DNA of 42,893 nucleotides. Source: a virus. Both the position numbers and the translations under genes were made by a program. The notes under the pieces were generated by a model. The model had not been told where the DNA came from and did not search any database. It saw only the letters and a list, made by a program, of their open reading frames with translations. Below, piece by piece: positions 32,154 through 42,838 of this stretch; positions within the stretch are counted from its first letter, which is position 1; the number at the start of each line of letters is the position of its first letter. The stretch lies in the IMG/VR virus record IMGVR_UViG_3300005563_000051, positions 1 through 42,893 of that record. One strand, given 5' to 3'.

Positions 32154-32713
32154 GCGTCCCGTCGATCCCGCAGCGCTGCGAGTCCAGACCCCTGCTCGGC
32201 GGCCTGGTCGTGCCGTACATCTCGCTGGTCGCCGAGGGCCGCACGCATCTCGGGGGCACGCACGGCAAGCGCGTCGCCGAGTGTGTCGCCCACTACCTGT
32301 GCCAGGTCTGCGGGCAGCGCCTGGGCGACCCGCCGTACCTGTTCCTCGCCACCCAGACGATGATCGACGAGGGGTTCTCGGGCGAGCCCGCGCTGCACCC
32401 GGAGTGCGCCGCCTACTCGGCCAAGGCGTGCCCGATGGTCGCCGGGCGGATGGCGACCTACTCGAAGCACCCGCATGACGTGACGGGGACGGCGTGCAAC
32501 GAGCCGGGCTGTGGCTGCGGCGGCTGGGTCAGCGATGAGAGCGCGAACGCGGGCAGGCCTGCGCCGTCGTGGTTCCGGGTGTGGGTGCGCACGTACGCGA
32601 TCGGCGTGAAAGAGCCGGGGCCGGTGACGGTCGGCAACGTGTCGGGCTGCGTGTTCAAGGGCCAGATCGTCAAGGTGCGGCCGGTCGCGCGAGCCGAGGT
32701 GAACGCCTCGTGA
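32150..32713 (+). CDS. Cys-rich early protein of a widespread actinobacterial family
   Basis: 187 residues from GTG 32150, GTGA overlap. RCESRPLLGGLVVPYISLVA, then CQVCGQRLGDPPYLFLATQT and LHPECAAYSAKACPMVAGRM give a zinc-ribbon core (CxxC...HPEC...C). A second half CNEPGCGCGGWVSDESANAG and the domain SWFRVWVRTYAIGVKE follow. Similar proteins are frequent in Streptomyces and its phages; function unknown. Confidence 0.72.
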   Translation: MSVPSIPQRCESRPLLGGLVVPYISLVAEGRTHLGGTHGKRVAECVAHYLCQVCGQRLGDPPYLFLATQTMIDEGFSGEPALHPECAAYSAKACPMVAGRMATYSKHPHDVTGTACNEPGCGCGGWVSDESANAGRPAPSWFRVWVRTYAIGVKEPGPVTVGNVSGCVFKGQIVKVRPVARAEVNAS

Positions 32714-33039
32714 CCACCGAGACCGTGTGCCTCAAGGGCCGCAAGAACGAGTTCGGCCCGCGCCTAGAGTGGGCGCCCGACGTGATCTACGTCGGCAGGT
32801 CGATGTACCAGGGCGGCTGGCGGCTGGCCGCCTCGCCGTTCGCGAACCCGTACAAGGTCCAGCAGGTCGGCGGCGCGGCCGAGGCGGTGCGGCTGTACCG
32901 GGAGTGGCTGCGCTCGCGGCCTGACCTGGTGGCGCTGGCCCGCGAGCGGCTGCGCGGAAAACGACTCGGCTGCTGGTGCGCGCGCGGGCCATGCCACGCC
33001 GCCGTCCTCGCCGATATCTCGGAAGGGGCCGCGCCGTGA
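32710..33039 (+). CDS. DUF4326 protein
   Basis: 109 residues, GTG 32710. VIYVGRSMYQGGWRLAASPF, ANPYKVQQVGGAAEAVRLYR then GCWCARGPCHAAVLADI give the DUF4326 signature, with the conserved Cys/His pattern. Members are common in phages. They may bind nucleic acids or ADP-ribose-like ligands; the activity is not known. Confidence 0.79.
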   Translation: MTTETVCLKGRKNEFGPRLEWAPDVIYVGRSMYQGGWRLAASPFANPYKVQQVGGAAEAVRLYREWLRSRPDLVALARERLRGKRLGCWCARGPCHAAVLADISEGAAP

Positions 33040-33269
33040 ACCTTCCCGAGCTGGTCGAACGTGCCGGCCGCGCGAACCGTCAGCCGCGCGTCTTCGAGCG
33101 CTTCCAGGTGTTCTACGTCGGCGCACTGGCGTTCGCGGTGTTCGACCTCGCGGTGTGGGGCGACGGCTTGGCGTGGGGGCTGCTCGGGATCGCGCTGGCC
33201 GGCCTGGGGCTGTCGGTGCGCGGCGAGATCTGCGCGCGCCGGACGCGGGACGGCGGTGGGGCGCTGTGA
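33036..33269 (+). CDS. Small membrane protein (77 aa)
   Basis: GTG 33036. Two hydrophobic segments: FYVGALAFAVFDLAVWG and LAWGLLGIALAGLGLSV, after an amphipathic start (ELVERAGRANRQPRVFERFQ). Coupled by a 4-nt overlap. Function unknown. Confidence 0.6.
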   Translation: MNLPELVERAGRANRQPRVFERFQVFYVGALAFAVFDLAVWGDGLAWGLLGIALAGLGLSVRGEICARRTRDGGGAL

Positions 33270-33610
33270 CCGAGCCGCGCCAGTCCATCCAGCCCACCTA
33301 CGACAGCCGCGAGACCGGCCCGCGCTACTACCTGAGCACGTTCGTGCACGGACGCTCCCTCGACTGGCGCAAGCCGATCGACGACCCCTTCGTCAGCACC
33401 GAGATCACGATCGGCTGGCCCGACCTGCTGCGCGCCCTCCTGCGCCGCCGCCTTCTCGTGCGCTTCCAGGTCGACGCCGACAGGGAGCTGGTCGAGGACG
33501 TGCTCGAACTCGACGGCAACTACCTCGGCCTCCCGAATTGCACCCGCCGCAGCGAATTCAACGGTCAGATCCACGCGGCGCTCAGCGACATGGACGGTGA
33601 GCAGCAGTGA
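33266..33610 (+). CDS. Hypothetical protein (114 aa)
   Basis: GTG 33266 in a GTGA overlap. RQSIQPTYDSRETGPRYYLS, TFVHGRSLDWRKPIDDPFVS then TEITIGWPDLLRALLRRRLL and a C-terminal acidic helix (LSDMDGEQQ). A basic core; no family known. Confidence 0.63.
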   Translation: MTEPRQSIQPTYDSRETGPRYYLSTFVHGRSLDWRKPIDDPFVSTEITIGWPDLLRALLRRRLLVRFQVDADRELVEDVLELDGNYLGLPNCTRRSEFNGQIHAALSDMDGEQQ

Positions 33611-34044
33611 ACGATTGGCAGGAGGGTCTAGACCAGGCCGACCGCGACAAGGTGGTCGCATGCGCTGATCTCGTGGGGCGCGCCGGGGCCCGGCAGTTCG
33701 AGATCGGCTTCGTCCACGAGGACGTTCCGGTCGCCGAGGCCGGCTGGTACGCGCATGCCCAGTACCGGGGAGCTCGGATCACCGCCGAGAACCACGACGG
33801 ACCGGCGCAGGCAGCGATGGCGCTCGCGGTGAAGATCCTGACCGGCGCGAAATGCCGGTGCGGCCGACTGGCCGCGCTGCGTCCGGACGGCGCAGTGGCG
33901 TTCCGCAAGACGCACATGGCGGACGGGACCGAGTGGTCGGCGGCCGAGGCGGCGAAGGCAGGGCAGTGCCGGTGGCGGCTGATCGGCGACAAGTGGGAGC
34001 CGTCGTGTCCGGTGCCAGCGAACCGGAAGGTCGGACCGCTGTGA
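33607..34044 (+). CDS. Zinc-ribbon hypothetical protein (145 aa)
   Basis: GTG 33607. Helical N-terminus DQADRDKVVACADLVGRAGA, then beta pairs (FEIGFVHEDVPVAEAGWYAH) and a C-terminal metal site KCRCGRLAALRPDG with a later CRWRLIGDKWEPSC. A common actinobacterial phage hypothetical. Function unknown. Confidence 0.68.
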   Translation: MNDWQEGLDQADRDKVVACADLVGRAGARQFEIGFVHEDVPVAEAGWYAHAQYRGARITAENHDGPAQAAMALAVKILTGAKCRCGRLAALRPDGAVAFRKTHMADGTEWSAAEAAKAGQCRWRLIGDKWEPSCPVPANRKVGPL

Positions 34045-34280
34045 CCGCCCGATGCGATCTCACCGACCTGGCCGTGGATCAATGCGCCTGCTGGCTGCAC
34101 TCCCCTACTCCGCAGCCGACCGTCGGCGTCGTGCGCGAGCTGCTGCGTCCGGACTGGTTCGAGGCCCGGTACCGGGGTCAGTGCGCGGGCTGCGGTGAGC
34201 CGTTTGCGGTCGGGGCGCGGATCACGCGGGACGAGGAGACCGGCGGATGGGTCGCGGAGTGCTGCGGCGACGAGCGATGA
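34041..34280 (+). CDS. Small zinc-finger protein (79 aa)
   Basis: GTG 34041. CDLTDLAVDQCACWLH and CAGCGEPFAVGARITRD with CC near the end give a likely zinc ribbon of a type often seen next to host-takeover genes. The C-terminal region resembles the small protein at 42626 (CSSCDGWIKRGQRYL). Function unknown. Confidence 0.66.
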   Translation: MTARCDLTDLAVDQCACWLHSPTPQPTVGVVRELLRPDWFEARYRGQCAGCGEPFAVGARITRDEETGGWVAECCGDER

Positions 34281-34327
34281 CCGATGCCACACCCACCCAC
34301 CCCACCCATCAGCCCGGAAGGGGCATC

Positions 34328-34897
34328 GTGACCGAGATCCAGCCGTTCGTCTTCCCGCCCACCGGCCAGCAGGTGCGCTCGCTAATGGTCGACGGAGAGC
34401 CGTGGTTCGTCGCCAACGACGCGTGCACGGCGGTCGGCATCACCAAGCCGCGAGACGCCGTCGCGCAGCTCGACGACGACGAAAGGGCGTCCACGGTCGT
34501 GGACACCCCTGGCGGCCCGCAGGTCATGACGGTGGTCAGCGAGGCCGGCGTCTACGCCCTGATGATGATCAGCCGGTCGCCGGCCGTGAAGCCGTTCCGG
34601 CGGTGGCTGGCGCACGAGGTGCTGCCCTCGATCCGCAGAACGGGCGGCTACAGCGTCGCGGGAGGCGACGCCTCGGTGCCCGTGCAGATTCAGGTGGCGG
34701 TCAACAGGCTCGCGGAGTTGGCGCACGACGAGCATGTGGTGCCGGCCGCTGCGCGGATTCTGGCGTTCAAGCGGTGGCGTAAGCCGCGCAAGGGGATCGA
34801 GGTTTACGTCCAACTCGCGATTGACGTCGGATCGCTCGGCCTGGACGGCGCCGCGGCAGGGGCCAGGGCACTGCCCGCGAAGGACCGGGCGCGGTGA
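34328..34897 (+). CDS. Bro-N antirepressor-like protein
   Basis: 189 residues from GTG 34328, after GGAAGGGG. Bro-N: MVDGEPWFVANDACTAVGIT, PRDAVAQLDDDERASTVV, VVSEAGVYALMMISRSPAVK and PFRRWLAHEVLPSIRRTGGY. The C-terminal ~75 residues are different and Arg-rich. The family includes phage antirepressors that can relieve repression. It sits among early genes, consistent with a lytic-decision role. Confidence 0.83.
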   Translation: MTEIQPFVFPPTGQQVRSLMVDGEPWFVANDACTAVGITKPRDAVAQLDDDERASTVVDTPGGPQVMTVVSEAGVYALMMISRSPAVKPFRRWLAHEVLPSIRRTGGYSVAGGDASVPVQIQVAVNRLAELAHDEHVVPAAARILAFKRWRKPRKGIEVYVQLAIDVGSLGLDGAAAGARALPAKDRAR

Positions 34898-35142
34898 CCC
34901 TCGACAGCATCGCCCGGTGGATCGTGCGCTCGCAGCCGTACCTGCCCGGTCTGGGCTGGTTCGTCGCGACGTTCTACGGCTTGTTCGCGGCGCTGTGCCT
35001 GCTGGTCGGCTGGTGGCCTGGGGTGGCGATGTTCGCCGGCGGGGGTGCGGTCAGCTGGTGGTGCGTGTGGCTGATGCGGCGCGGGGCTCGGGAGTTGGAG
35101 CAGCTGCAGCGGGTCATCGACGGGCGCAGGTGCGACCGGTGA
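34894..35142 (+). CDS. Membrane protein (82 aa)
   Basis: GTG 34894 overlapping the previous stop. Two hydrophobic stretches FVATFYGLFAALCLLVGWW and AMFAGGGAVSWWCVWLM, then an amphipathic ELEQLQRVIDGRRC tail. Function unknown. Confidence 0.62.
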   Translation: MTLDSIARWIVRSQPYLPGLGWFVATFYGLFAALCLLVGWWPGVAMFAGGGAVSWWCVWLMRRGARELEQLQRVIDGRRCDR

Positions 35143-35185
35143 CGCCCCGGTGTGTGCGCTGCGGCGCGGCGGTGCTGGAGGCGTC
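35139..35185 (+). pseudogene. Possible 5' remnant of a rightward zinc-ribbon gene
   Basis: GTG 35139 overlaps the stop of the membrane gene in the usual GTGA way, and the first codons read MTPRCVRCGAAVLEASGD, a CxxC zinc ribbon. Beyond about 35185 the frame stays open but lies antisense to the leftward cassette and is not coherent. A gene truncated by arrival of the cassette is a plausible reading; its 5' start is intact. Confidence 0.33.
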
Positions 35186-35438
35186 AGGCGATGCGACGCC
35201 AGTCCACCTCGGTGCCGCGCGGGATGTCGAGTTCGTCGAGATCGGCCTCGGTGAGCACGCGCAGGCTGTCGAGGTCCAGCGGGTTGACCGCGATGCCGTC
35301 GGCGGTGAAGGCGTAGGGCTCGGGTTCGCCGTTGCGCGGGTCGCCGGTCAGGCCGGGGACGAACGCGACCGCCGGGACTCCGCGCATCGTGAGCGCGAAG
35401 CCGTGGAAACGCAGGTGCAGGAAAAGCGGCTCGGGCAC
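35184..35438 (-). CDS. Hypothetical protein of the leftward cassette (84 aa)
   Basis: GTG 35438, just downstream of the HTH gene stop (35442). HLRFHGFALTMRGVPAVAFV, PGLTGDPRNGEPEPYAFTAD then LDSLRVLTEADLDELDIPRG: an ordered small protein with strands then an acidic helical C-terminus. Not recognised. Coupled with the HTH gene, it may be its partner (inference). Confidence 0.63.
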   Translation of the reverse strand: MPEPLFLHLRFHGFALTMRGVPAVAFVPGLTGDPRNGEPEPYAFTADGIAVNPLDLDSLRVLTEADLDELDIPRGTEVDWRRIA

Positions 35439-35441
35439 AGG

Positions 35442-35858
35442 TCAGCCCGCCGCAGGGTCGCCGAAATCGTCCGCGTCAAGGCCAGCGGCGGCCAGCTTCT
35501 CGCGAACCTTGCGGATGCTCGTAGTAGTCGGTTCGCGCAACGGCTCGACACCGTTCTCTCGGGCCATCTGACGGATGGTCTCGGCCGACTTCTCGGTCCT
35601 ACGCACGATCACAGCGGGACGAACGCCAGCCCGAATGGCTACCGCGACGGCTTCGGCGAACTCGGCGCGCTTACGCTTCTCGGCCTGCTCGGCCTTGCGC
35701 CATGCGGCGAGCGCCGCCATAACCGGAGCCATTCGCGGGTCGTCGGGGTCGATGCGCGCCATGCCGTCATCGTGCCACATGCCATTTGCGATGTGCAGGC
35801 CACCTACCTGCGAAGTCTTGTCGCTGGCGCATTGGTCAGCGAATCTGTCACGGTCCAT
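35442..35858 (-). CDS. HTH regulator of the leftward cassette, probably leaderless
   Basis: 138 residues from ATG 35858 (MDRDRFADQCASDKTSQVGG), or 106 from ATG 35762 (MARIDPDDPRMAPVMAALAA). Charged helix RKAEQAEKRKRAEFAEAVAV then AIRAGVRPAVIVRRTEKSAE and TIRQMARENGVEPLREPTTT resemble a helix-turn-helix of a sigma-region-4 or inverse regulator type. Start 35858 fits a good promoter whose -10 ends 7 nt upstream, so the transcript would begin at the ATG. It is transcribed against the early operon. Confidence 0.7.
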   Translation of the reverse strand: MDRDRFADQCASDKTSQVGGLHIANGMWHDDGMARIDPDDPRMAPVMAALAAWRKAEQAEKRKRAEFAEAVAVAIRAGVRPAVIVRRTEKSAETIRQMARENGVEPLREPTTTSIRKVREKLAAAGLDADDFGDPAAG

Positions 35859-35893
35859 GAGGTCTACTGTACAGACCAAACGACTTGTGGCAA
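35859..35893 (-). promoter_or_regulatory. Leftward promoter of the HTH cassette with palindrome
   Basis: Read on the minus strand: -35 TTGCCA (35893-35888), 16-nt spacer, -10 TACAGT (35871-35866), then 7 nt to ATG 35858. The -10 is inside GGTCT-ACTGTAC-AGACC (35861-35877), an inverted repeat with an internal CTGTACAG palindrome, suggesting that a regulator, perhaps the cassette's own HTH protein, binds over it. One of the best sigma70-type promoters seen in the window. Confidence 0.66.
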
Positions 35894-35922
35894 AGTGGCT
35901 ACCGGAAGGCTCGCAACAAAGC

Positions 35923-35958
35923 GGCCTCCGGAGGCGTCGGAAGCGCCAACCGGAGGCC
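35923..35958 (+). promoter_or_regulatory. Stable hairpin upstream of leader ORF and PAPS-reductase-like gene
   Basis: GGCCTCCGG (35923-35931) pairs with CCGGAGGCC (35950-35958), and an inner GGCG/CGCC stem extends it. It could be an attenuator or a terminator that separates this part of the operon. No T tract. Confidence 0.55.
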
Positions 35959-35993
35959 TGAACCCGCACCTGCGCATACAGGAGACGGATCTG

Positions 35994-36035
35994 ATGGCCC
36001 AGTCTACGGGCGCCCGCTTCGGGGGTCTCGCGTGA
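35994..36035 (+). CDS. 13-codon leader peptide upstream of PAPS-reductase-like gene
   Basis: ATG 35994, preceded by AGGAG at good distance (ATACAGGAGACGGATCTG). Reads MAQSTGARFGGLA and stops at 36033-36035, overlapping the GTG of the next gene. The larger gene has no own ribosome site, so this mini-ORF likely couples its translation. Whether the peptide itself acts is unknown. Confidence 0.45.
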   Translation: MAQSTGARFGGLA

Positions 36036-36883
36036 GCACGCAAACGACCCTCATCGAACTCGGCGACATCCGCGCCACCCCGGACTTGGACACGTACGAC
36101 GTGATCCTCGTCAACTCCAGCGCGGGAAAAGACTCCCAAGCGATGCTCACGCACCTGGTCGAGCGCGCCGACGCCGAAGACGTGCCTCGCAGTCGGATCA
36201 TCGTGGTCCACGCCGACCTCGGGCGCGTGGAGTGGGAAGGCACGCGCGAACTCGCCGAGCGTCAGGCCGCCGCGTACGGACTGCGGTTCGAGACCGTCGC
36301 GCGCACCGAGGACCTGCTCGACCAGATCGTCACCCGCCACAACACGCTGCGGGCGAAGGGTGACACCACGACCCCCGCGTGGCCGTCGAGTCAGGCCAGG
36401 TACTGCACCTCCGACCAGAAGACCGCCCAGGTCGCCAAGCTAATGACGCGGCTCGCCGACGAACACCGGCGCACGCATCCGGAACGCCCGATCAGGATCC
36501 TGAACTGCCTCGGCATCCGGGCCGCAGAGTCCCCGGCGCGGGCGAAGAAGACGCCGTTCGGGCCGGACACCGCCGCATCCAACGGGCGGCGCATCGTGGA
36601 CCGCTGGCTGCCGATCTTCGACTGGTCCTCGGGCCAGGTCTGGGAGACGATCCGCCGCTCGGGCCTGCCGCACCACCCGGCCTATGACGCCGGGATGCCG
36701 CGCCTGTCATGCATGTTCTGCGTCCTGGCCGGGCGCAAGGAACTCGTGTTGTCCGCGCGCCTCAACCCGGCCATGGCCCAGGAATACCTGGCGGTCGAGC
36801 GACTGGTGGGCCACAGCTTCAAAGCCGACCTGTCCATGGCCGAGATCGTGGCGGCCGCCTCCCCCGCGCCGATCGGAGCCTGA
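36032..36883 (+). CDS. PAPS-reductase-like ATP-pyrophosphatase
   Basis: 283 residues from GTG 36032. PP-loop VILVNSSAGKDSQAM (about 24-38), VHADLGRVEWEGT, YCTSDQKTAQVAKLM, LNCLGIRAAESPAR, then WLPIFDWSSGQVWETI and CMFCVLAGRKELVLSA. The family activates a substrate with ATP by adenylation; in phages the substrate is unknown. DndC-like proteins of DNA phosphorothioation belong to the same fold, but no dndD or dndE partner is visible. The Cys pairs could bind a metal centre. Confidence 0.84.
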   Translation: MSTQTTLIELGDIRATPDLDTYDVILVNSSAGKDSQAMLTHLVERADAEDVPRSRIIVVHADLGRVEWEGTRELAERQAAAYGLRFETVARTEDLLDQIVTRHNTLRAKGDTTTPAWPSSQARYCTSDQKTAQVAKLMTRLADEHRRTHPERPIRILNCLGIRAAESPARAKKTPFGPDTAASNGRRIVDRWLPIFDWSSGQVWETIRRSGLPHHPAYDAGMPRLSCMFCVLAGRKELVLSARLNPAMAQEYLAVERLVGHSFKADLSMAEIVAAASPAPIGA

Positions 36884-36884
36884 C

Positions 36885-37265
36885 ATGCCTGCCACTGTCC
36901 GCCGCACGTTCACGGCACCCGACACGCTCCCGAACGTCGTGCTCATCCAGGCCGAGGCGCTGTGGGCCGCCGCCACGGACGACGCCGACGACCGCCTCGC
37001 CGACCTGCTCGGCCTCGGCCCCGGCGACGGGCACGACGAACTGACGCGCTGCCAGGCGCCCGGCTGCGGCGCCTGGCTCTGGGCCGACGAGGGCGCGGAC
37101 CTGGTGTACGAGTCCGGCGCCAGCCTGCGGATGTGCGAGGCGCACGCCGTACCGGACGACCCCGGATGCCGCGTGTACCCCGGCGTGGGCCTGGAGGCGC
37201 GCTGGCGCGAGGCCGAGGACGCCGCCCGGTCCAAGCGGCTTCGCGAGACCGGCAGTCCGTGGTGA
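36885..37265 (+). CDS. Zinc-ribbon hypothetical protein (126 aa)
   Basis: ATG 36885, just past the previous stop. Start PATVRRTFTAPDTLPNVVLI, central helices, then CQAPGCGAWLWADEGADLVY and MCEAHAVPDD: CxxxxCG and C..H possibly bind zinc. C-terminal helix RWREAEDAARSKRLRETG. Function unknown. Confidence 0.66.
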   Translation: MPATVRRTFTAPDTLPNVVLIQAEALWAAATDDADDRLADLLGLGPGDGHDELTRCQAPGCGAWLWADEGADLVYESGASLRMCEAHAVPDDPGCRVYPGVGLEARWREAEDAARSKRLRETGSPW

Positions 37266-37346
37266 ACCCCCGACATACCGGCACGGCTCAAGCGCCGGCC
37301 CGCGACCCCACGTCCACACAACCCCTAGCAAGGAGGCTGCGGCTCA

Positions 37347-38216
37347 ATGGCCGACCGCCGCACCTATGTCCGGCTGCACGACGGACTGCCCGACCACATG
37401 AAGATTGCCGCGGTCGGCGGCGAGGCCGCGTGGCTGTACGTGTGTGGGCTTTGCTACGCATCACGCCAGCTCACGGACGGGGTTATCCCGGTTCGACTGA
37501 TCGGCCGGATGACCGACTTCAAGGACAACGAAGCACTTGCTTCGCGTTTGCTTGAAGCAAATCTCTGGCACACCGCTCAGCACGAGTGCAAGAGCTGCCC
37601 TCAAGCCGTCGGCGACGTGTACGTCATCCACGACTACTTGGAGCATCAGCGCAGCGCGGCCGAGGTCAGGGACCTGTCTGAAAAGCGTTCCGCCGCAGGC
37701 CAGAAGGGCGGAAAGGCTTCCGGGGCCACTCGCCGCGGCGAAGCAAACGATGAAGCAAGTGCTTCAGCAAAACCGAAGCAAACGCGAAGCAAAACCGAAG
37801 CAGAGACAGAGACAGATAAGAAGAAGACTTCGTCTTCTTCTGGCCGCACTACGCGCGGCACACGAATCCCCGACGACTTCACCGTCACCCCCGCCATGGT
37901 CGCGTGGGCCCGCGAAAACACCCCCGACGTCGACGGCAAGTACCAGACCGAGAAGTTCATCAGGTACTGGCGCGCCAAGTCCGGCCGCGACGCCACCAAG
38001 GTCGACTGGGTCGCCACCTGGGAGAACTGGATGTTCAAGGCCCAGGAGGACATCACCGGGCCGAGGCAGATCCCACTTCCTGTCACCGATCACGCCTCGC
38101 GCCCCGAATGGTGCGGCAACTGCGACCCCCAGACCCGCATGGCCGAGAACGCCGAACGCCACCCCGTGCGCTGCCCCCGCTGCCACCCCCTGACCCAGAA
38201 AGCGAGCACGCCGTGA
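37347..38216 (+). CDS. Replication initiator (lambda O-like architecture) with zinc finger
   Basis: 289 residues from ATG 37347, after AAGGAGG. N-terminal winged-helix type domain: YVRLHDGLPDHMKIAAVGGE, YVCGLCYASRQLTDGVIPVR, then LASRLLEANLWHTAQHECK and VIHDYLEHQRSAAEVRDLSE. A low-complexity linker about 125-170 (ASASAKPKQTRSKTEAETET) is encoded by iterons. C-terminal helicase-interaction-like helices (DDFTVTPAMVAWARENTPDV; FIRYWRAKSGRDATKVDWVA) and a zinc finger (CGNCDPQTRM...CPRCHP). It is followed two genes later by DnaB, as in phages where the initiator loads DnaB at an origin inside its own gene. Confidence 0.8.
   Translation: MADRRTYVRLHDGLPDHMKIAAVGGEAAWLYVCGLCYASRQLTDGVIPVRLIGRMTDFKDNEALASRLLEANLWHTAQHECKSCPQAVGDVYVIHDYLEHQRSAAEVRDLSEKRSAAGQKGGKASGATRRGEANDEASASAKPKQTRSKTEAETETDKKKTSSSSGRTTRGTRIPDDFTVTPAMVAWARENTPDVDGKYQTEKFIRYWRAKSGRDATKVDWVATWENWMFKAQEDITGPRQIPLPVTDHASRPEWCGNCDPQTRMAENAERHPVRCPRCHPLTQKASTP
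37530..37841. other. Probable replication origin: GAAGCA iterons plus hairpin inside the initiator gene
   Basis: GAAGCA occurs at 37530, 37554, 37740, 37752, 37775, 37786 and 37797, with TCAGCA at 37764. In the second block the spacing is 12, 12, 11, 11 and 11 nt, so the repeats are in helical phase but in all three reading frames. Two copies form 14-bp palindromes GAAGCA-nn-TGCTTC (37530-37543, 37752-37765). A perfect 10-bp stem AGAAGAAGAC/GTCTTCTTCT with TTC loop follows (37819-37841). The stretch is AT-rich for this genome. This matches the lambda O/ori layout. Confidence 0.73.
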
Positions 38217-38461
38217 GCGAGACCCGGCGCTTGCGCGACGCGGCCGAGATGCTGCGCACCGCGAGCCGCGACCACTACGCCGAACAACCCCTGAACTCAG
38301 CCGTCTGCACCGGAATCGCCGACTGGCTCGAAGCCACCGCCCACGACGCCGCATACACCGCCCGCGGACTCGCGCTGGAGCACGCGCACCGGATCGCGGA
38401 CGCCGTCCTACGCAGCGGCGAAACCAAGAACGCCGAATCGGTCCGGGACGGTGCCGCGTGA
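38213..38461 (+). CDS. Helical hypothetical protein (82 aa)
   Basis: GTG 38213 in a GTGA overlap. TRRLRDAAEMLRTASRDHYA, TGIADWLEATAHDAAYTARG, LALEHAHRIADAVLRSGETK. It sits between initiator and DnaB, the place of a helicase loader in some phages, but no ATPase motif is present. It resembles the protein at 31896-32153 in its helix pattern. Confidence 0.66.
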   Translation: MSETRRLRDAAEMLRTASRDHYAEQPLNSAVCTGIADWLEATAHDAAYTARGLALEHAHRIADAVLRSGETKNAESVRDGAA

Positions 38462-39774
38462 ACGACCGCACCCCCCCGCAGAACCTGGAAGCCGAGATGG
38501 CCGTGCTCGGCGGGATGCTCATGTCCAAGCACGCGATCAGCGAGGTCGCGGACATCCTGACCCCGGCGGACTTCTACAAGCCCGCGCACGAAACCATCTA
38601 CACCACGATCCTGCGCCTGTCCGCGACCGGCCAGCCCGCCGACGCGCTCACGGTCGGCGCGGAACTGACGAACCGCAGGCTGATCGGCAGGATCGGCGGC
38701 CTGCCGTACTTGCACGCACTCACCGGCAGCGTCACCACCCCCGCATCGTCGGGCTGGTATGCGCAGATCGTGCGGGACCTGGCGACCCGTCGCCGCCTGA
38801 TCGAGACCGGCACGCGCATCGCGCAGATGGGCTACGAGACCGACGACGCCGCGGACCTCGCGGCGATCGTGGACCGCGCACAGGCCGAGGCGAACGCGAT
38901 CAGCGACCGCACGGTGCACGAAGACGACCCGACGGTGCGCGACACGGCGGACGAGGTCATCGACGAACTCAAGAACGGCGTCGAGATGGGCCTGCCCACC
39001 GGGTTCCGCGACCTCGACGACCTCACGCACGGCTTGCAGCCCGGACAGATGGTGATCATCGCGGCCAGGCCTGGCATGGGCAAGTCAACGGCCGGATTAG
39101 ACGTGATCCGCAGCGTCTCGATCAGGCGGCGCTTGCCCAGCGTGTTCTTCTCCCTGGAGATGCCGCGTAAGGAACTGGTCCGTCGCTGCCTGTCCGCCGA
39201 AGGCTCCATCCCCCTGCACCACATGGCACCGCGTTGCATGGCGCAGGACGACTGGGAGCGCCTCGCCCTGTGCTACGACCGGGTCGTCACCGCCCCCATC
39301 ACGATCGACGACCGGCCGAACCTGACGGTCATGCAGGCGCGGTCCAAGGCCAGGCAGCTCAAGCAGGGCGCCGGCCTGGAACTGGCGGTGTTCGACTACG
39401 CGCAGTTGGCCAAGTCGGGCCGCGACCGCAAGCACGAGAACCGGCAGACCGAGGTCACCGCGATCTCGAACGAACTGAAGCTGATGGCCAGGGAACTGCA
39501 CATCCCGGTCATCGTGCTCGCCCAGCTCAACCGCGGCCCGATGCAGCGCGCGGACAAGCGCCCGATGATGTCCGACCTGCGCGAGTCGGGCGCGCTGGAG
39601 CAGGACGCGGATGTCGTGATCCTCCTGCACCGCGAGGACGCGTACGAGCGCGAGAGCCCCAGGGCGGGCGAAGCGGACTTCATCGTCGAGAAGCACCGCA
39701 ACGGCCCCACCGCGACGATCACCGTCGCGTTCCAGGGGCACTACAGCCGCTTCGTGGACATGGCGCACTCCTGA
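38458..39774 (+). CDS. dnaB: Replicative DNA helicase DnaB
   Basis: 438 residues from GTG 38458. N-terminal DnaB domain (NLEAEMAVLGGMLMSKHAIS, YLHALTGSVTTPASSGWYAQ), then RecA-like core: GLPTGFRDLDDLTHGLQPGQ, Walker A ARPGMGKST (203-211), VFFSLEMPRKELVRRCL, Walker B LAVFDYAQL (Asp313), IPVIVLAQLNRGPM and GALEQDADVVILLHRED. C-terminus FIVEKHRNGPTATITVAFQG. Hexameric 5'-3' helicase at the phage fork, presumably loaded by the initiator at the adjacent origin. Confidence 0.92.
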   Translation: MNDRTPPQNLEAEMAVLGGMLMSKHAISEVADILTPADFYKPAHETIYTTILRLSATGQPADALTVGAELTNRRLIGRIGGLPYLHALTGSVTTPASSGWYAQIVRDLATRRRLIETGTRIAQMGYETDDAADLAAIVDRAQAEANAISDRTVHEDDPTVRDTADEVIDELKNGVEMGLPTGFRDLDDLTHGLQPGQMVIIAARPGMGKSTAGLDVIRSVSIRRRLPSVFFSLEMPRKELVRRCLSAEGSIPLHHMAPRCMAQDDWERLALCYDRVVTAPITIDDRPNLTVMQARSKARQLKQGAGLELAVFDYAQLAKSGRDRKHENRQTEVTAISNELKLMARELHIPVIVLAQLNRGPMQRADKRPMMSDLRESGALEQDADVVILLHREDAYERESPRAGEADFIVEKHRNGPTATITVAFQGHYSRFVDMAHS

Positions 39775-39803
39775 CATTCACCACCTACTACCTAAGGAAT
39801 CCC

Positions 39804-40610
39804 GTGGACACCGAGAACCAGGCCCCGATCCCCACCGGCCACGAAGACCTCGACGCTCTCCTCGGCGGCGGACTGCACCCCGGCCACCTCACCGCCATCA
39901 CCGGACCTGTCGCCGTCGGCAAAACCATGTTCACCATCGGCCTCGCCCGCCACGCCGCCATCCGCTGCGGGCAGCCCGCGTTCTTCGCCAGCACCGAATC
40001 CGGAGCCGACCAGCTCATGGAGTACGTCCTGTGCGCCGAAGCGCGCGTCCGGTTCGGCGCGTCTCGGCGCGACCGGGCCACCCCCGAAGAGATGCAGCGC
40101 GCCAAAGAGGTGCGCGACGCGGTGACGGGCGCCGTACTGGGGCTGGACAACGTCATCAACTGGACGCTGGAGCGCGTCGCCCTCACCGCGATGCGACTGG
40201 TCCACGAGCGCGGACTGCGCCTGTTCGCCCTCGACTACGTGCAACTGCTCGCGGAAACGGACCCCGAGCAGGCGTCGGCCGACCGCATCGAAGAGATCGC
40301 CGTCGGGCTCAAGCAACTCGCTCGCGCCGCGAACATCGCGGTGGTCGCCGTTTCCACGATGCGCAGCTTCCCCGCGAAGGCCAACGGCTGGATCCACCCG
40401 GCGATGTTCGACCTCGGAGACACCGAGGCGTTCGAACGCCACGCCGACGAGTTGATCATTCTGCACCGCGAAGACCAGGACGACCGCGACAGCCCGCGCG
40501 CCGGGGAGGCGGACGTGATCCTCGCGAAGAACCGCAACGGCCACACCGGAACCGCGACCATCGCGTTCCAGCCGCACTTCGCCCGCTTCGTGGACATGGT
40601 CAAGAGCTGA
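39804..40610 (+). CDS. DnaB-like RecA-fold ATPase lacking the N-terminal domain
   Basis: 268 residues from GTG 39804, after AAGGAAT. Core: IPTGHEDLDALLGGGLHPGH, Walker A GPVAVGKT (34-41), FFASTESGADQLMEYVLCAE, Walker B LFALDYVQLL (Asp144), and a C-terminus RDSPRAGEADVILAKNRNGH plus TGTATIAFQPHFARFVDMVK that is nearly the same as the end of DnaB. It has no N-terminal dimerisation domain, and STMRSFP replaces the LAQLNRGP motif. A diverged duplicate acting as loader, regulator or second helicase subunit is likely. Confidence 0.86.
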   Translation: MDTENQAPIPTGHEDLDALLGGGLHPGHLTAITGPVAVGKTMFTIGLARHAAIRCGQPAFFASTESGADQLMEYVLCAEARVRFGASRRDRATPEEMQRAKEVRDAVTGAVLGLDNVINWTLERVALTAMRLVHERGLRLFALDYVQLLAETDPEQASADRIEEIAVGLKQLARAANIAVVAVSTMRSFPAKANGWIHPAMFDLGDTEAFERHADELIILHREDQDDRDSPRAGEADVILAKNRNGHTGTATIAFQPHFARFVDMVKS

Positions 40611-40819
40611 TGGCCGCCAGCCACGACCCCGAGCCGGACCGCGAGGCCCGCGTCGCTGCTGTGGATGAGCGTGCGCAAAGCGCTGGACCGAATGGGCGCC
40701 AGCCGATGACCGCACCCCTGCCGCCGCGCCTGTCCGACCACGCCCCGCAGCCCCCAGTGGCACTGACCTGCACGAACGCCCGGTTCCAGCCCCTCAACCC
40801 GAACGGAGATCAGCAGTGA
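40610..40819 (+). CDS. Small Pro-rich hypothetical protein (69 aa)
   Basis: ATG 40610 in a TGATG overlap. Disordered: MAASHDPEPDREARVAAVDE then APLPPRLSDHAPQPPVALTC and FQPLNPNGDQQ. The stop overlaps the next GTG. No clear domain; the conserved coupling supports expression. Confidence 0.55.
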   Translation: MAASHDPEPDREARVAAVDERAQSAGPNGRQPMTAPLPPRLSDHAPQPPVALTCTNARFQPLNPNGDQQ

Positions 40820-41109
40820 GCGACAACAACGGAAGCAGCGGCGGGATCAGCCTGATCGGCGCCCTCGGCCTGCTGTTTATCGGCCTGAAGCTCGGCCACG
40901 TCATCGACTGGTCCTGGTGGCTGGTGACGCTGCCGCTGTGGGGCGGTGCCGCGCTCGTCGTCGCGATCCTCGCGCTCGTCGTGGCGGGCGCCGGGGTTGG
41001 CGCGGCGGTCAAGAGCGCCGGGCGCCGGCGCGAGATCCGGTCCGCACGCGCACGGGGCGCCGTGTCCGGCCGCCGCGTGTCGATCGGCGAGCGCAGAGAC
41101 ACCCGATAG
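40816..41109 (+). CDS. Membrane protein (97 aa)
   Basis: GTG 40816. Two hydrophobic helices: SLIGALGLLFIGLKLGHVI and WGGAALVVAILALVVAGAGV, then a basic Arg-rich tail (SAGRRREIRSARARGAVSG). Function unknown. Confidence 0.63.
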   Translation: MSDNNGSSGGISLIGALGLLFIGLKLGHVIDWSWWLVTLPLWGGAALVVAILALVVAGAGVGAAVKSAGRRREIRSARARGAVSGRRVSIGERRDTR

Positions 41110-41166
41110 TCACCGCAATCCCTGACCTGCATCGACACCTGGCCGCACGGCCGGAAAGGAACTGAC

Positions 41167-41712
41167 ATGCACACCGCACCCGACAGCGCCGAAGGGCGCC
41201 TGACCGATCTCATCGACCGCTGGAGGATCGACAACCTCTCCGCTGCCGACCTCATGCCGAGCGCCGAGCAGATGCCCGCGTTCCTCGGCGACCTCGACGC
41301 GATCCTGCGCGAGCTGCGACAGACGCGCACCGGACTGGACCAGACCATTGGCGAACGCGACCAGGCGCAGGACGCGGCCGACAGCCTCGCCTACGCCATC
41401 GCCCCGCTCGAGGTGATCGGCGAGCACACCGGCGACAACGACCCGTGGGCCGAAGCGCTCGAAGTGCTCGGCCGGCAGAAGACCGAGTGGACGTGGCAGC
41501 GCAGTGACGCCTCCGGTCTCGCGGTCCGCGGGTTTCCGATGCCCGAGGCTGCGGCGCGCAAGCACGTCGATGACCTGAACGCCCGCGAGGACATCGCGAA
41601 GCGGGGATGGCGCTACGAGGTGGCGCGCAGGGTCATCGGGCAGTGGACCGCCGAGTCGGTCCTCCAGTCCGCGCCGCTCGTCGACGAGGCACCCTCGGCG
41701 GTGACGGCATGA
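41167..41712 (+). CDS. Hypothetical protein with coiled coil (181 aa)
   Basis: ATG 41167, preceded by GGAAAGGAACTGAC. DLIDRWRIDNLSAADLMPSA, DAILRELRQTRTGLDQTIGE then a C-terminal WQRSDASGLAVRGFPMPEAA and HVDDLNAREDIAKRGWRYEV. Not recognised. It overlaps the next gene by 4 nt. Confidence 0.66.
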   Translation: MHTAPDSAEGRLTDLIDRWRIDNLSAADLMPSAEQMPAFLGDLDAILRELRQTRTGLDQTIGERDQAQDAADSLAYAIAPLEVIGEHTGDNDPWAEALEVLGRQKTEWTWQRSDASGLAVRGFPMPEAAARKHVDDLNAREDIAKRGWRYEVARRVIGQWTAESVLQSAPLVDEAPSAVTA

Positions 41713-42629
41713 ACGACACCGACACGACCGGCACCCTCCCACTCGAGGCCCTCGACGCCGAGGCGCTGGCCAAGCAGATCGACTACCGCGTCGTCGCATA
41801 CGGCATCGACGTCCTGGACAACTCCGGCCACGAGATCGCCGCACGCATGCTGCGGCTGCTCGACGACCAGTTCGGGGCCATGTCCCGCAGGGCCGAGGCC
41901 CTTCAGGTCGTCCTGAACGCCGCGAAGGCGATGAACGGCGTGCACGAGCGCGCCATCGCCCGGCTGCGCGCCGAACTGGAGCAGGCGAAACTCGCCCCCG
42001 GCCCGACCGGTCTGACCCGCGTGTGGTCGGGCTACAACGACGACGAGTGCTGGTTCCCAATGTTCGCGAACCTGGCCGACGCGAAGGCGTACGCGGAGCG
42101 GGCGTTTCGGGTCTCGTGCGCGGAGCTGGACGCGGGCGAACCGGGCGAGATCACGTGGGTCGAGCGCAAGGCGCGCACCGACCACCTCGGCTACCCGGAC
42201 ATGTGGGACCTCACGTCGGACGTCGGCGGAGACGGCTGGGTGGTGTGCGGGGTGCTGGTGCACCCGGATCTGGCGTCGGGTCTGCGGGAGCAGCCGATCG
42301 AGCAGCCCGAGCCCGACGGCGAGCCGCAGCCGCAGACCGAGGGCCAGGGCGTGCTGCCGGTCGAGACCGCCGGGAGCGCCCCCGACCCGCGCGACTTCCG
42401 CATCGGCGACCTGGTGCAGATCACCGCCCGCGAAGGCGAGAGCGAGGCGACGCCGCCCGGCCTGCGCCTGAACGGCCGCACCGGTCCCGTCGTCGATTTC
42501 GACGACACCCAGTACCCGATCGGTGTCGCGGTCGAGGGCTGGCTCGGCCCGGTGTGGTGCAGCCCCGGCGAGGTCCGGCATCTGAGCGCCGAGGAGATCG
42601 CCCGGCTGGAGAGCGGGGTCGGCCGATGA
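41709..42629 (+). CDS. Hypothetical early protein (306 aa)
   Basis: ATG 41709 in an ATGA overlap. Coiled-coil N-terminal part (AARMLRLLDDQFGAMSRRAE, HERAIARLRAELEQAKLAPG), middle YNDDECWFPMFANLADAKAY with WVERKARTDHLGYPDMWDLT, a Pro/Glu-rich linker and a C-terminal beta domain (GDLVQITAREGESEATPPGL ... RTGPVVDFDDTQYPIGVAVE). The last part resembles an SH3-like KOW fold. No function can be assigned. Confidence 0.68.
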   Translation: MNDTDTTGTLPLEALDAEALAKQIDYRVVAYGIDVLDNSGHEIAARMLRLLDDQFGAMSRRAEALQVVLNAAKAMNGVHERAIARLRAELEQAKLAPGPTGLTRVWSGYNDDECWFPMFANLADAKAYAERAFRVSCAELDAGEPGEITWVERKARTDHLGYPDMWDLTSDVGGDGWVVCGVLVHPDLASGLREQPIEQPEPDGEPQPQTEGQGVLPVETAGSAPDPRDFRIGDLVQITAREGESEATPPGLRLNGRTGPVVDFDDTQYPIGVAVEGWLGPVWCSPGEVRHLSAEEIARLESGVGR

Positions 42630-42838
42630 CCGCCCTGGCGCGCACCGTCACCCGCACCGCCCGCAAGCCGCACCAGTGCTCCAGCTGCGACGGGTGGATC
42701 AAGCGCGGCCAGCGGTACCTGTCGCACACGATGAGCCCCGGCGGCGACATGGGCTACATCGGCTGGAACCGGATCGCCGAGTGCGCGGGCTGCGCTGAGC
42801 GCTACGGGCGGCCGATCCCCGCGGCGGGTGCCGCATGA
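42626..42838 (+). CDS. Small zinc-finger protein (70 aa)
   Basis: ATG 42626 in an ATGA overlap. RTARKPHQCSSCDGWIKRGQ then a middle HTMSPGGDMGYIGW and AECAGCAERYGR: two CxxC pairs forming a zinc ribbon. Function unknown. Confidence 0.72.
   Translation: MTALARTVTRTARKPHQCSSCDGWIKRGQRYLSHTMSPGGDMGYIGWNRIAECAGCAERYGRPIPAAGAA

Follow-up and report, generated by a model that had tools for sequence, protein, structure and literature searches.

Why is the hexamer GAAGCA repeated within the replication initiator gene of a phage related to Streptomyces viruses? The DNA examined, referred to here as the window, is the whole of virus record IMGVR_UViG_3300005563_000051 from IMG/VR (42,893 bases), a record that may itself be a fragment. 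A sequence-only reading of the window had interpreted the repeats as an iteron origin lying inside the initiator gene, and comparison of sequences supports that interpretation. We consider it highly probable that the repeats are iterons for the phage's own initiator and that they mark an in-gene replication origin. The features concerned are listed below.

37347-38216, + strand: replication initiator gene, 289 amino acids, with a winged-helix N-domain, a disordered linker and a helical C-module (from PHROG matches and an AlphaFold2 model).
37374-37721, + strand: N-terminal winged-helix domain, about residues 10-125 (block means of 92-98 in pLDDT, the model's per-residue score, for residues 11-120).
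37530-37559, unstranded: Block A, three GAAGCA/TGCTTC copies in codons 62-71, overlapping predicted helix 3 (from counts, shuffles and the AlphaFold2 model).
37530-37543, unstranded: Dyad 1, GAAGCACTTGCTTC, a 14-bp palindrome in Block A.
37740-37802, unstranded: Block B, six copies in the disordered linker, the last three forward copies 11 nucleotides (nt) apart.
37752-37765, unstranded: Dyad 2, GAAGCAAGTGCTTC, a 14-bp palindrome in Block B.
37740-37844, unstranded: low-GC tract (46.7% GC), proposed as the place of opening.
37801-37816, + strand: short tandem repeat CAGAGACAGAGACAGA, period 6, not significant alone (20/200 synonymous shuffles as long).
37819-37841, unstranded: hairpin with exact 10-bp arms and a 3-nt loop (z -3.1; reached by 0/200 synonymous shuffles).
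37863-38060, + strand: C-terminal module, with helices at residues 182-191, 197-211 and 218-237, proposed as a helicase interface.
38458-39774, + strand: DnaB-type replicative helicase, 438 amino acids (PF03796, E 2.2e-90; PF00772, E 2.1e-30).

Counted on both strands, GAAGCA occurs 17 times in the window, an unremarkable total that 28 of 100 shuffles reached. Nine of these copies are inside the initiator gene, seven of them forward (37530, 37554, 37740, 37752, 37775, 37786 and 37797) and two reverse, as TGCTTC (37538 and 37760). When synonymous codons were permuted within the gene, the mean was 0.99 copies and the maximum six, and nine were obtained in 0/20,000 shuffles. A null based on the codon usage of five neighbouring open reading frames gave a mean of 0.63 and a maximum of five, again with nine in 0/20,000, and two or more 14-bp dyads appeared in none of 20,000 synonymous shuffles. 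Selection on the nine copies therefore acts at the DNA level, as first proposed.

The layout differs in part from the original description of at least seven copies in the low-complexity linker, as the repeat is real but the three copies of Block A lie within codons of the DNA-binding domain. Forward copies in the main block follow one another at 12, 23, 11 and 11 nt from start to start. The hexamer does occur in all three reading frames, although five of the seven forward copies are in frame 0. Both 14-bp palindromes, the perfect 10-bp hairpin and dnaB just downstream were found as described, and the segment called AT-rich has the second lowest GC content among the 105-nt stretches of the window. 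As a separate observation, an exact 17-nt inverted repeat joins the two blocks (37537-37553 with 37776-37792); one relative, L018, is without an exact version of it. A repeat statistic that allowed one mismatch was dropped because it was swamped by GC-rich words, and under it the window scored only 10/200.

The initiator matched two PHROG profiles annotated as 'replication initiation protein', PHROG 3926 over residues 4-184 (E 5.5e-21) and PHROG 2447 over residues 6-173 (E 2.8e-19). It matched no Pfam family at E 0.01, and nothing in Pfam or NCBIfam with a meaningful score. In an AlphaFold2 model built from a 34-sequence alignment (mean pLDDT 76.5), the N-domain comprises helices at residues 25-41, 49-55 and 61-70 and strands at 46-48, 74-76 and 91-94, the linker is disordered (residues 143-170 at pLDDT <50), and the C-terminal part forms a smaller helical domain. 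From the usual winged-helix topology, we take helix 3 (residues 61-70) to be the recognition helix. Foldseek returned no match to the model at E 0.001 or better (best 0.055), and solved relatives sought by sequence gave none at E <0.01. Structural comparison returned many winged-helix proteins at a middling level of Z 6-8, Rep N-domains among them. Against 4pt7, 4pql and 5kbj, presumably staphylococcal Rep N-domains, the scores were a modest 7.0, 6.9 and 6.6, tied with many unrelated winged helices. A DnaT-type C-terminal domain was rejected as the identity of the C-module, as PF17948 was found in 0/4 records (the control was found in E. coli) and was not among the Pfam matches of the C-module at E up to 5.

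The search for relatives used protein patterns that fall outside both blocks. Among the 61 loci returned, 26 had an N-domain at least 64% identical to that of the window, and loss of the repeats was not seen in them: 25 held 6-10 copies at the same two places, and the other (L012) was cut by a contig end before reaching them. One of these 25 loci, L017, comes from a contig with 100% identity to the window across 10,289 bases, and some of the genes are identical to each other. In the 22 non-identical genes of the clade, the window's included, the helix-3 dyad was present in all and the linker dyad in 21, being degraded in L021, and the two blocks were 222-234 nt apart. The N-domain profile had a match at E 1e-5 in 32 of 392 genomes from the genus of the host of L008. 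Four of the matches were close (E <1e-60), and one of these four, L091, which was new to the set, carries both dyads, 234 nt apart.

Whole records were next searched for the dyad GAAGCANNTGCTTC, 16 in all. The window and 13 contigs, taken from the 21 clade virus contigs, each held exactly two, both in the initiator gene, while the record of L038 held none, that of L002 four, and the backward control none in all 16. An IMG/VR search that used DNA only, for two dyads at a matching distance, returned 24 stretches. Twenty-one were initiator genes with dyads at helix 3 and in the linker; the remainder were the record of L002 (helix 3 plus an upstream gene) and two stretches in repetitive, unrelated proteins. 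DNA resembling Block B gave one 20-nt match at E 0.6 in named phages and none in plasmids. Codon identity among the 22 clade genes exceeded expectation by up to +0.18 over 37737-37841. Residue 64, within helix 3, may reflect the pull of the DNA: members of the clade have Ser (AGT), Leu (CTT) or Asn (AAT) there, and each codon keeps the T needed by the dyad.

The type of repeat co-varies with the N-terminal domain. One N-domain type and one iteron are common to L018, the L006 group and the window, whose C-terminal modules are of three different kinds. L038 has the C-module (67% identity; 54% in L080) and hairpin in common with the window, and its N-domain is only 50% identical. The L038 gene contains six copies of a YTRGCAA-type repeat, of which two lie at helix 3 and the other four in the linker; its 7-kb flanks have none, and its word statistic is 2/200. 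Its helix residues Leu-Ala-Ser are encoded by CTTGCCAGC, compared with CTTGCTTCG in the window, an altered half-site. In L039 and L002, where the N-domain is 34% identical, the GAAGCA dyad is kept at helix 3 and half-sites lie in the linker.

The C-modules, for their part, seem to be matched to the neighbouring genes, a trend only, because four loci were compared. A P-loop ATPase precedes DnaB in L018 (IstB-like, E 1.3e-10) and in L006 (only AAA matches, under curated cut-offs). No recognised loader lies between the initiator and DnaB in the window, and in L038 DnaB is found about 0.8 kb downstream of the initiator.

By analogy with lambda O, SPP1 gp38 and pSK41 Rep, we infer that an origin lies at this place, with binding of the protein, opening of the DNA, loading of the helicase and the start of replication. 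The N-terminal winged-helix domain would bind GAAGCA half-sites in both blocks, pairwise at the two dyads. Binding in Block B, where half-sites are about one helical turn apart, would stress the adjoining low-GC tract and lead to its opening. The C-module would then recruit DnaB. In the window's type it would do so directly, in those of L018 and L006 by way of an ATPase loader, and replication would start once DnaB had been delivered. Block A, 222 or 234 nt away, could act by looping to make the complex stronger, could hold down transcription of its own gene, or could be just a second binding block.

The position of Block A suggests, tentatively, that the protein carrying the recognition helix also binds the codons for that helix, and that the specificities of initiator and origin are physically coupled, since any change in the helix would alter the site, and vice versa. 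We think this possible rather than probable. Under such coupling, an exchange of iterons of the sort that separates the window clade from L038 would have to pass through both helix and site.

Origins within initiator genes are known from lambda O (PMC5043065, PMC7466680), SPP1 gp38 (PMC6316719) and pSK41 Rep (PMC5703833), and the comparisons made here follow the available passages of those sources. At ori-lambda, as proposed for the window, iterons lie in the middle of the initiator gene with an A+T-rich tract beside them, and the helicase is recruited later (PMC5043065, PMC7466680). Lambda, however, has four 19-bp inverted repeats in one block, whereas the window has two dyads 222 nt apart and half-sites about 11 nt apart, in two blocks. 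One of these blocks is in recognition-helix codons, and the window's DnaB is phage-encoded, in both respects unlike lambda. The description 'lambda-O style' given earlier suits the mode of working (in-gene repeats, low-GC tract, helicase downstream) but not the arrangement of the repeats, and is meant here as a likeness of mode. SPP1 gp38 and oriL are similar in that the DnaB-type helicase is encoded by the phage, but SPP1 possesses a further origin, oriR, at a distance of about 13 kb (PMC6316719). The window has no second dyad cluster.

The Rep protein of pSK41 (RepA_N) offers a further parallel, as its N-terminal winged helix binds Rep boxes central in rep, its linker is encoded by the origin and its C-domain is separable; pPR9 retains the C-domain of pSK41 but departs from it in N-domain and origin together (PMC5703833). 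The Rep boxes are in the linker part of rep, and the available passages mention no block in the DNA-binding domain (PMC5703833). The initiator itself had no RepA_N domain match (Pfam, E 0.01). Actinophage initiators in PHROG 3926 and 2447, such as gp46 of Gordonia phage Schmidt and gp63 of Mycobacterium phage Jung, are N-domain or C-module relatives whose identity is no higher than 27-53% and covers only part of the protein. Several of the ten records examined from these phages had short linker repeats; Jung, the sole named phage tested, had no helix-3 copy of its own repeat. In pSLA2, a linear plasmid of Streptomyces, a phage-like origin lies within the rep gene.

Given three systems with in-gene origins, and the joint difference of N-domain and origin in pPR9, the window does not represent a new kind of origin. 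What varies is the block in recognition-helix codons and the mixed layout of dyads and direct repeats. Neither an iteron block in recognition-helix codons nor a tandem repeat followed by a hairpin was described in the available passages of the literature searched, which included PMC7157519, PMC3583192, PMC6316719, PMC7466680, PMC5043065 and PMC5703833; this is a weak absence, as most subscription papers lay outside that scope. For actinophages, those passages held only supposition, and the locus offers a precise candidate origin of 300 nt with base-level predictions, in an initiator family present in Streptomyces genomes and viral contigs. Mapping of the origin is thereby reduced to cloning on a small scale. 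Should Block A prove to be bound, a recognition helix whose codons overlap the site it binds would offer a natural model for the evolution of protein-DNA specificity. The different iterons could also give compatible replicons for actinomycete genetics.

Several results weigh against an iteron origin at this place or add nothing to it. The GC-skew check suggested earlier was no help, as the cumulative maximum, at 35,435, is opposite in polarity to the minimum usual at origins and the skew is uninformative. No site resembling a DnaA box was found at 36.0-40.5 kb when up to one mismatch to the consensus was allowed. The excess of codon identity at Block A is only about +0.09, equal to the 0.09 at the start of the gene, and a few C-terminal stretches reach +0.10 to +0.19; Block A alone is therefore weak on this measure. 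Lastly, L002 and L039 have lost the full linker dyad and have three dyads in an upstream gene, indicating that the layout can move. In L002 these extra GAAGCANNTGCTTC dyads are at 2606, 2678 and 3041, as though the array had spread into the gene 5' of the initiator, which by our reading is RecT-like.

An alternative that we consider unlikely is that the sites form an operator, at which the protein binds inside its own gene as a roadblock to its own transcription while replication starts elsewhere. The dyads would suit a winged-helix dimer, and Block A is 184 nt into the gene. However, the window's only two dyads are at 37530 and 37752, with none 5' of the start codon, the 13 other clade contigs likewise have only two, and Block B adjoins the second lowest GC stretch of the window. 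An operator at the start of the gene was rejected, as no dyad is present there in the window. Operator and origin roles may both be present.

Slippage in an unconstrained, low-complexity linker is a very improbable source of the linker repeats. Short tandem repeats are common in linkers of this family (31 of 46 representatives), but slippage does not account for copies of both orientations, for their grouping into two blocks separated by 222-234 nt, one of them inside a folded domain, or for positions kept in 25 relatives with no loss among the 25 full-length clade loci. We give just as little credence to a partition or other maintenance site. Centromere-like sites also contain repeated dyads, but only one of 12 records, which may be fragments, had a ParB_N match; that record is 175 kb long, with the match at 171.9 kb and the initiator near 18.7 kb. 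ParA-type AAA_31 was found in none of the 12. Codon bias or peptide selection alone, to which the conserved peptides EANDEASAS and EA(S/L/N)AS and the five of seven forward copies in one frame might point, is the least credible explanation and was rejected on the synonymous shuffles, on third-position GC, which drops from 0.81-0.91 elsewhere in the gene to 0.37 over the stretch from Block B through the hairpin and to 0.18 in Block A, and on the probability of the Block A dyad codons given the peptide, computed from the codons of the rest of each gene (3.5e-4 in the window, 1.1e-3 in L039 and 5.3e-5 in L008).

Returning to the repeats as iterons, we compared linkers across the wider initiator family. 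Other lineages have linker repeats of their own, including ten copies of ATGGCAAA in L044, five of CGATCGAA at 22-nt steps in L046, and eight of CGTCTAC in L135. Matches of 6-mers at lag 11 numbered 84 in 34 representatives, compared with a null maximum of 27. A repeated word at 1/200 or fewer was found in 18 of 46 representatives. By our reading, seven of these (L013, L047, L066, L075, L076, L122 and L127) are the short tandem repeat and one (L058) is scattered, leaving ten iteron-like cases; L038 and L039 were at 2/200. Most of the 46 were without iterons by the repeated-word test, for which some may be too degenerate.

Tandem repeats with units of 5-8 nt, mostly without T or A, were present in 31 of the 46 representatives, where synonymous shuffles gave an expectation of 6.3. 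A hairpin (10/200 shuffles or fewer) lay within 60 nt after the tandem repeat in 14 of the 31, starting within 8 nt in 12 of those 14. L122, for example, has a GTACCC repeat and then a hairpin with a 12-bp stem, and further examples of the repeat are L120, L050, L063 and L072. Hairpin stems differ between lineages, and loops are such as TGAC or TAC. In the window it is the hairpin (0/200) and not the tandem repeat (20/200) that is significant. An order of iterons, strand-asymmetric repeat and hairpin thus recurs in the linkers of the family. Slippage could produce the tandem repeat, but not the hairpins.

A copy of the linker repeat at helix 3 was looked for, with one mismatch allowed, in 12 other genes in which helix 3 could be placed (L044, L046, L075, L040, L043, L014, L015, L105, L108, L082, L118 and L111), and none had one; the count leaves out L101 and L085, in which helix 3 was misplaced, and L097, which was not placed. 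As far as is known, Block A is thus confined to the GAAGCA clade, L002/L039 and L038.

The surroundings of the initiator gene gave further observations. A 115,995-base contig, L001, is 100% identical to window positions 32347-42635, across 10,289 bases, and has no match to the final 258 bases of the window, which may be a fragment or variant of the L001 virus. Upstream of the initiator, positions 34247-34897 encode a BRO-type antirepressor (PF02498, E 2.3e-20) and 35885-36883 a PAPS-reductase-domain protein (PF01507, E 5.3e-15). Among the 12 records searched, DnaB_C was found in 11, and in ten of these it was within about 3 kb of the initiator. The window has a second DnaB_C domain directly 3' of dnaB, at 39828-40592 (PF03796, E 2.6e-45), a DnaB-type ATPase domain in which the DnaB N-terminal domain was not matched. 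The 3' part of dnaB is duplicated there at 78% identity (39617-39763 and 40453-40599). The second domain is present also in the near-identical record G398, and the ten other records searched hold one DnaB_C domain or none.
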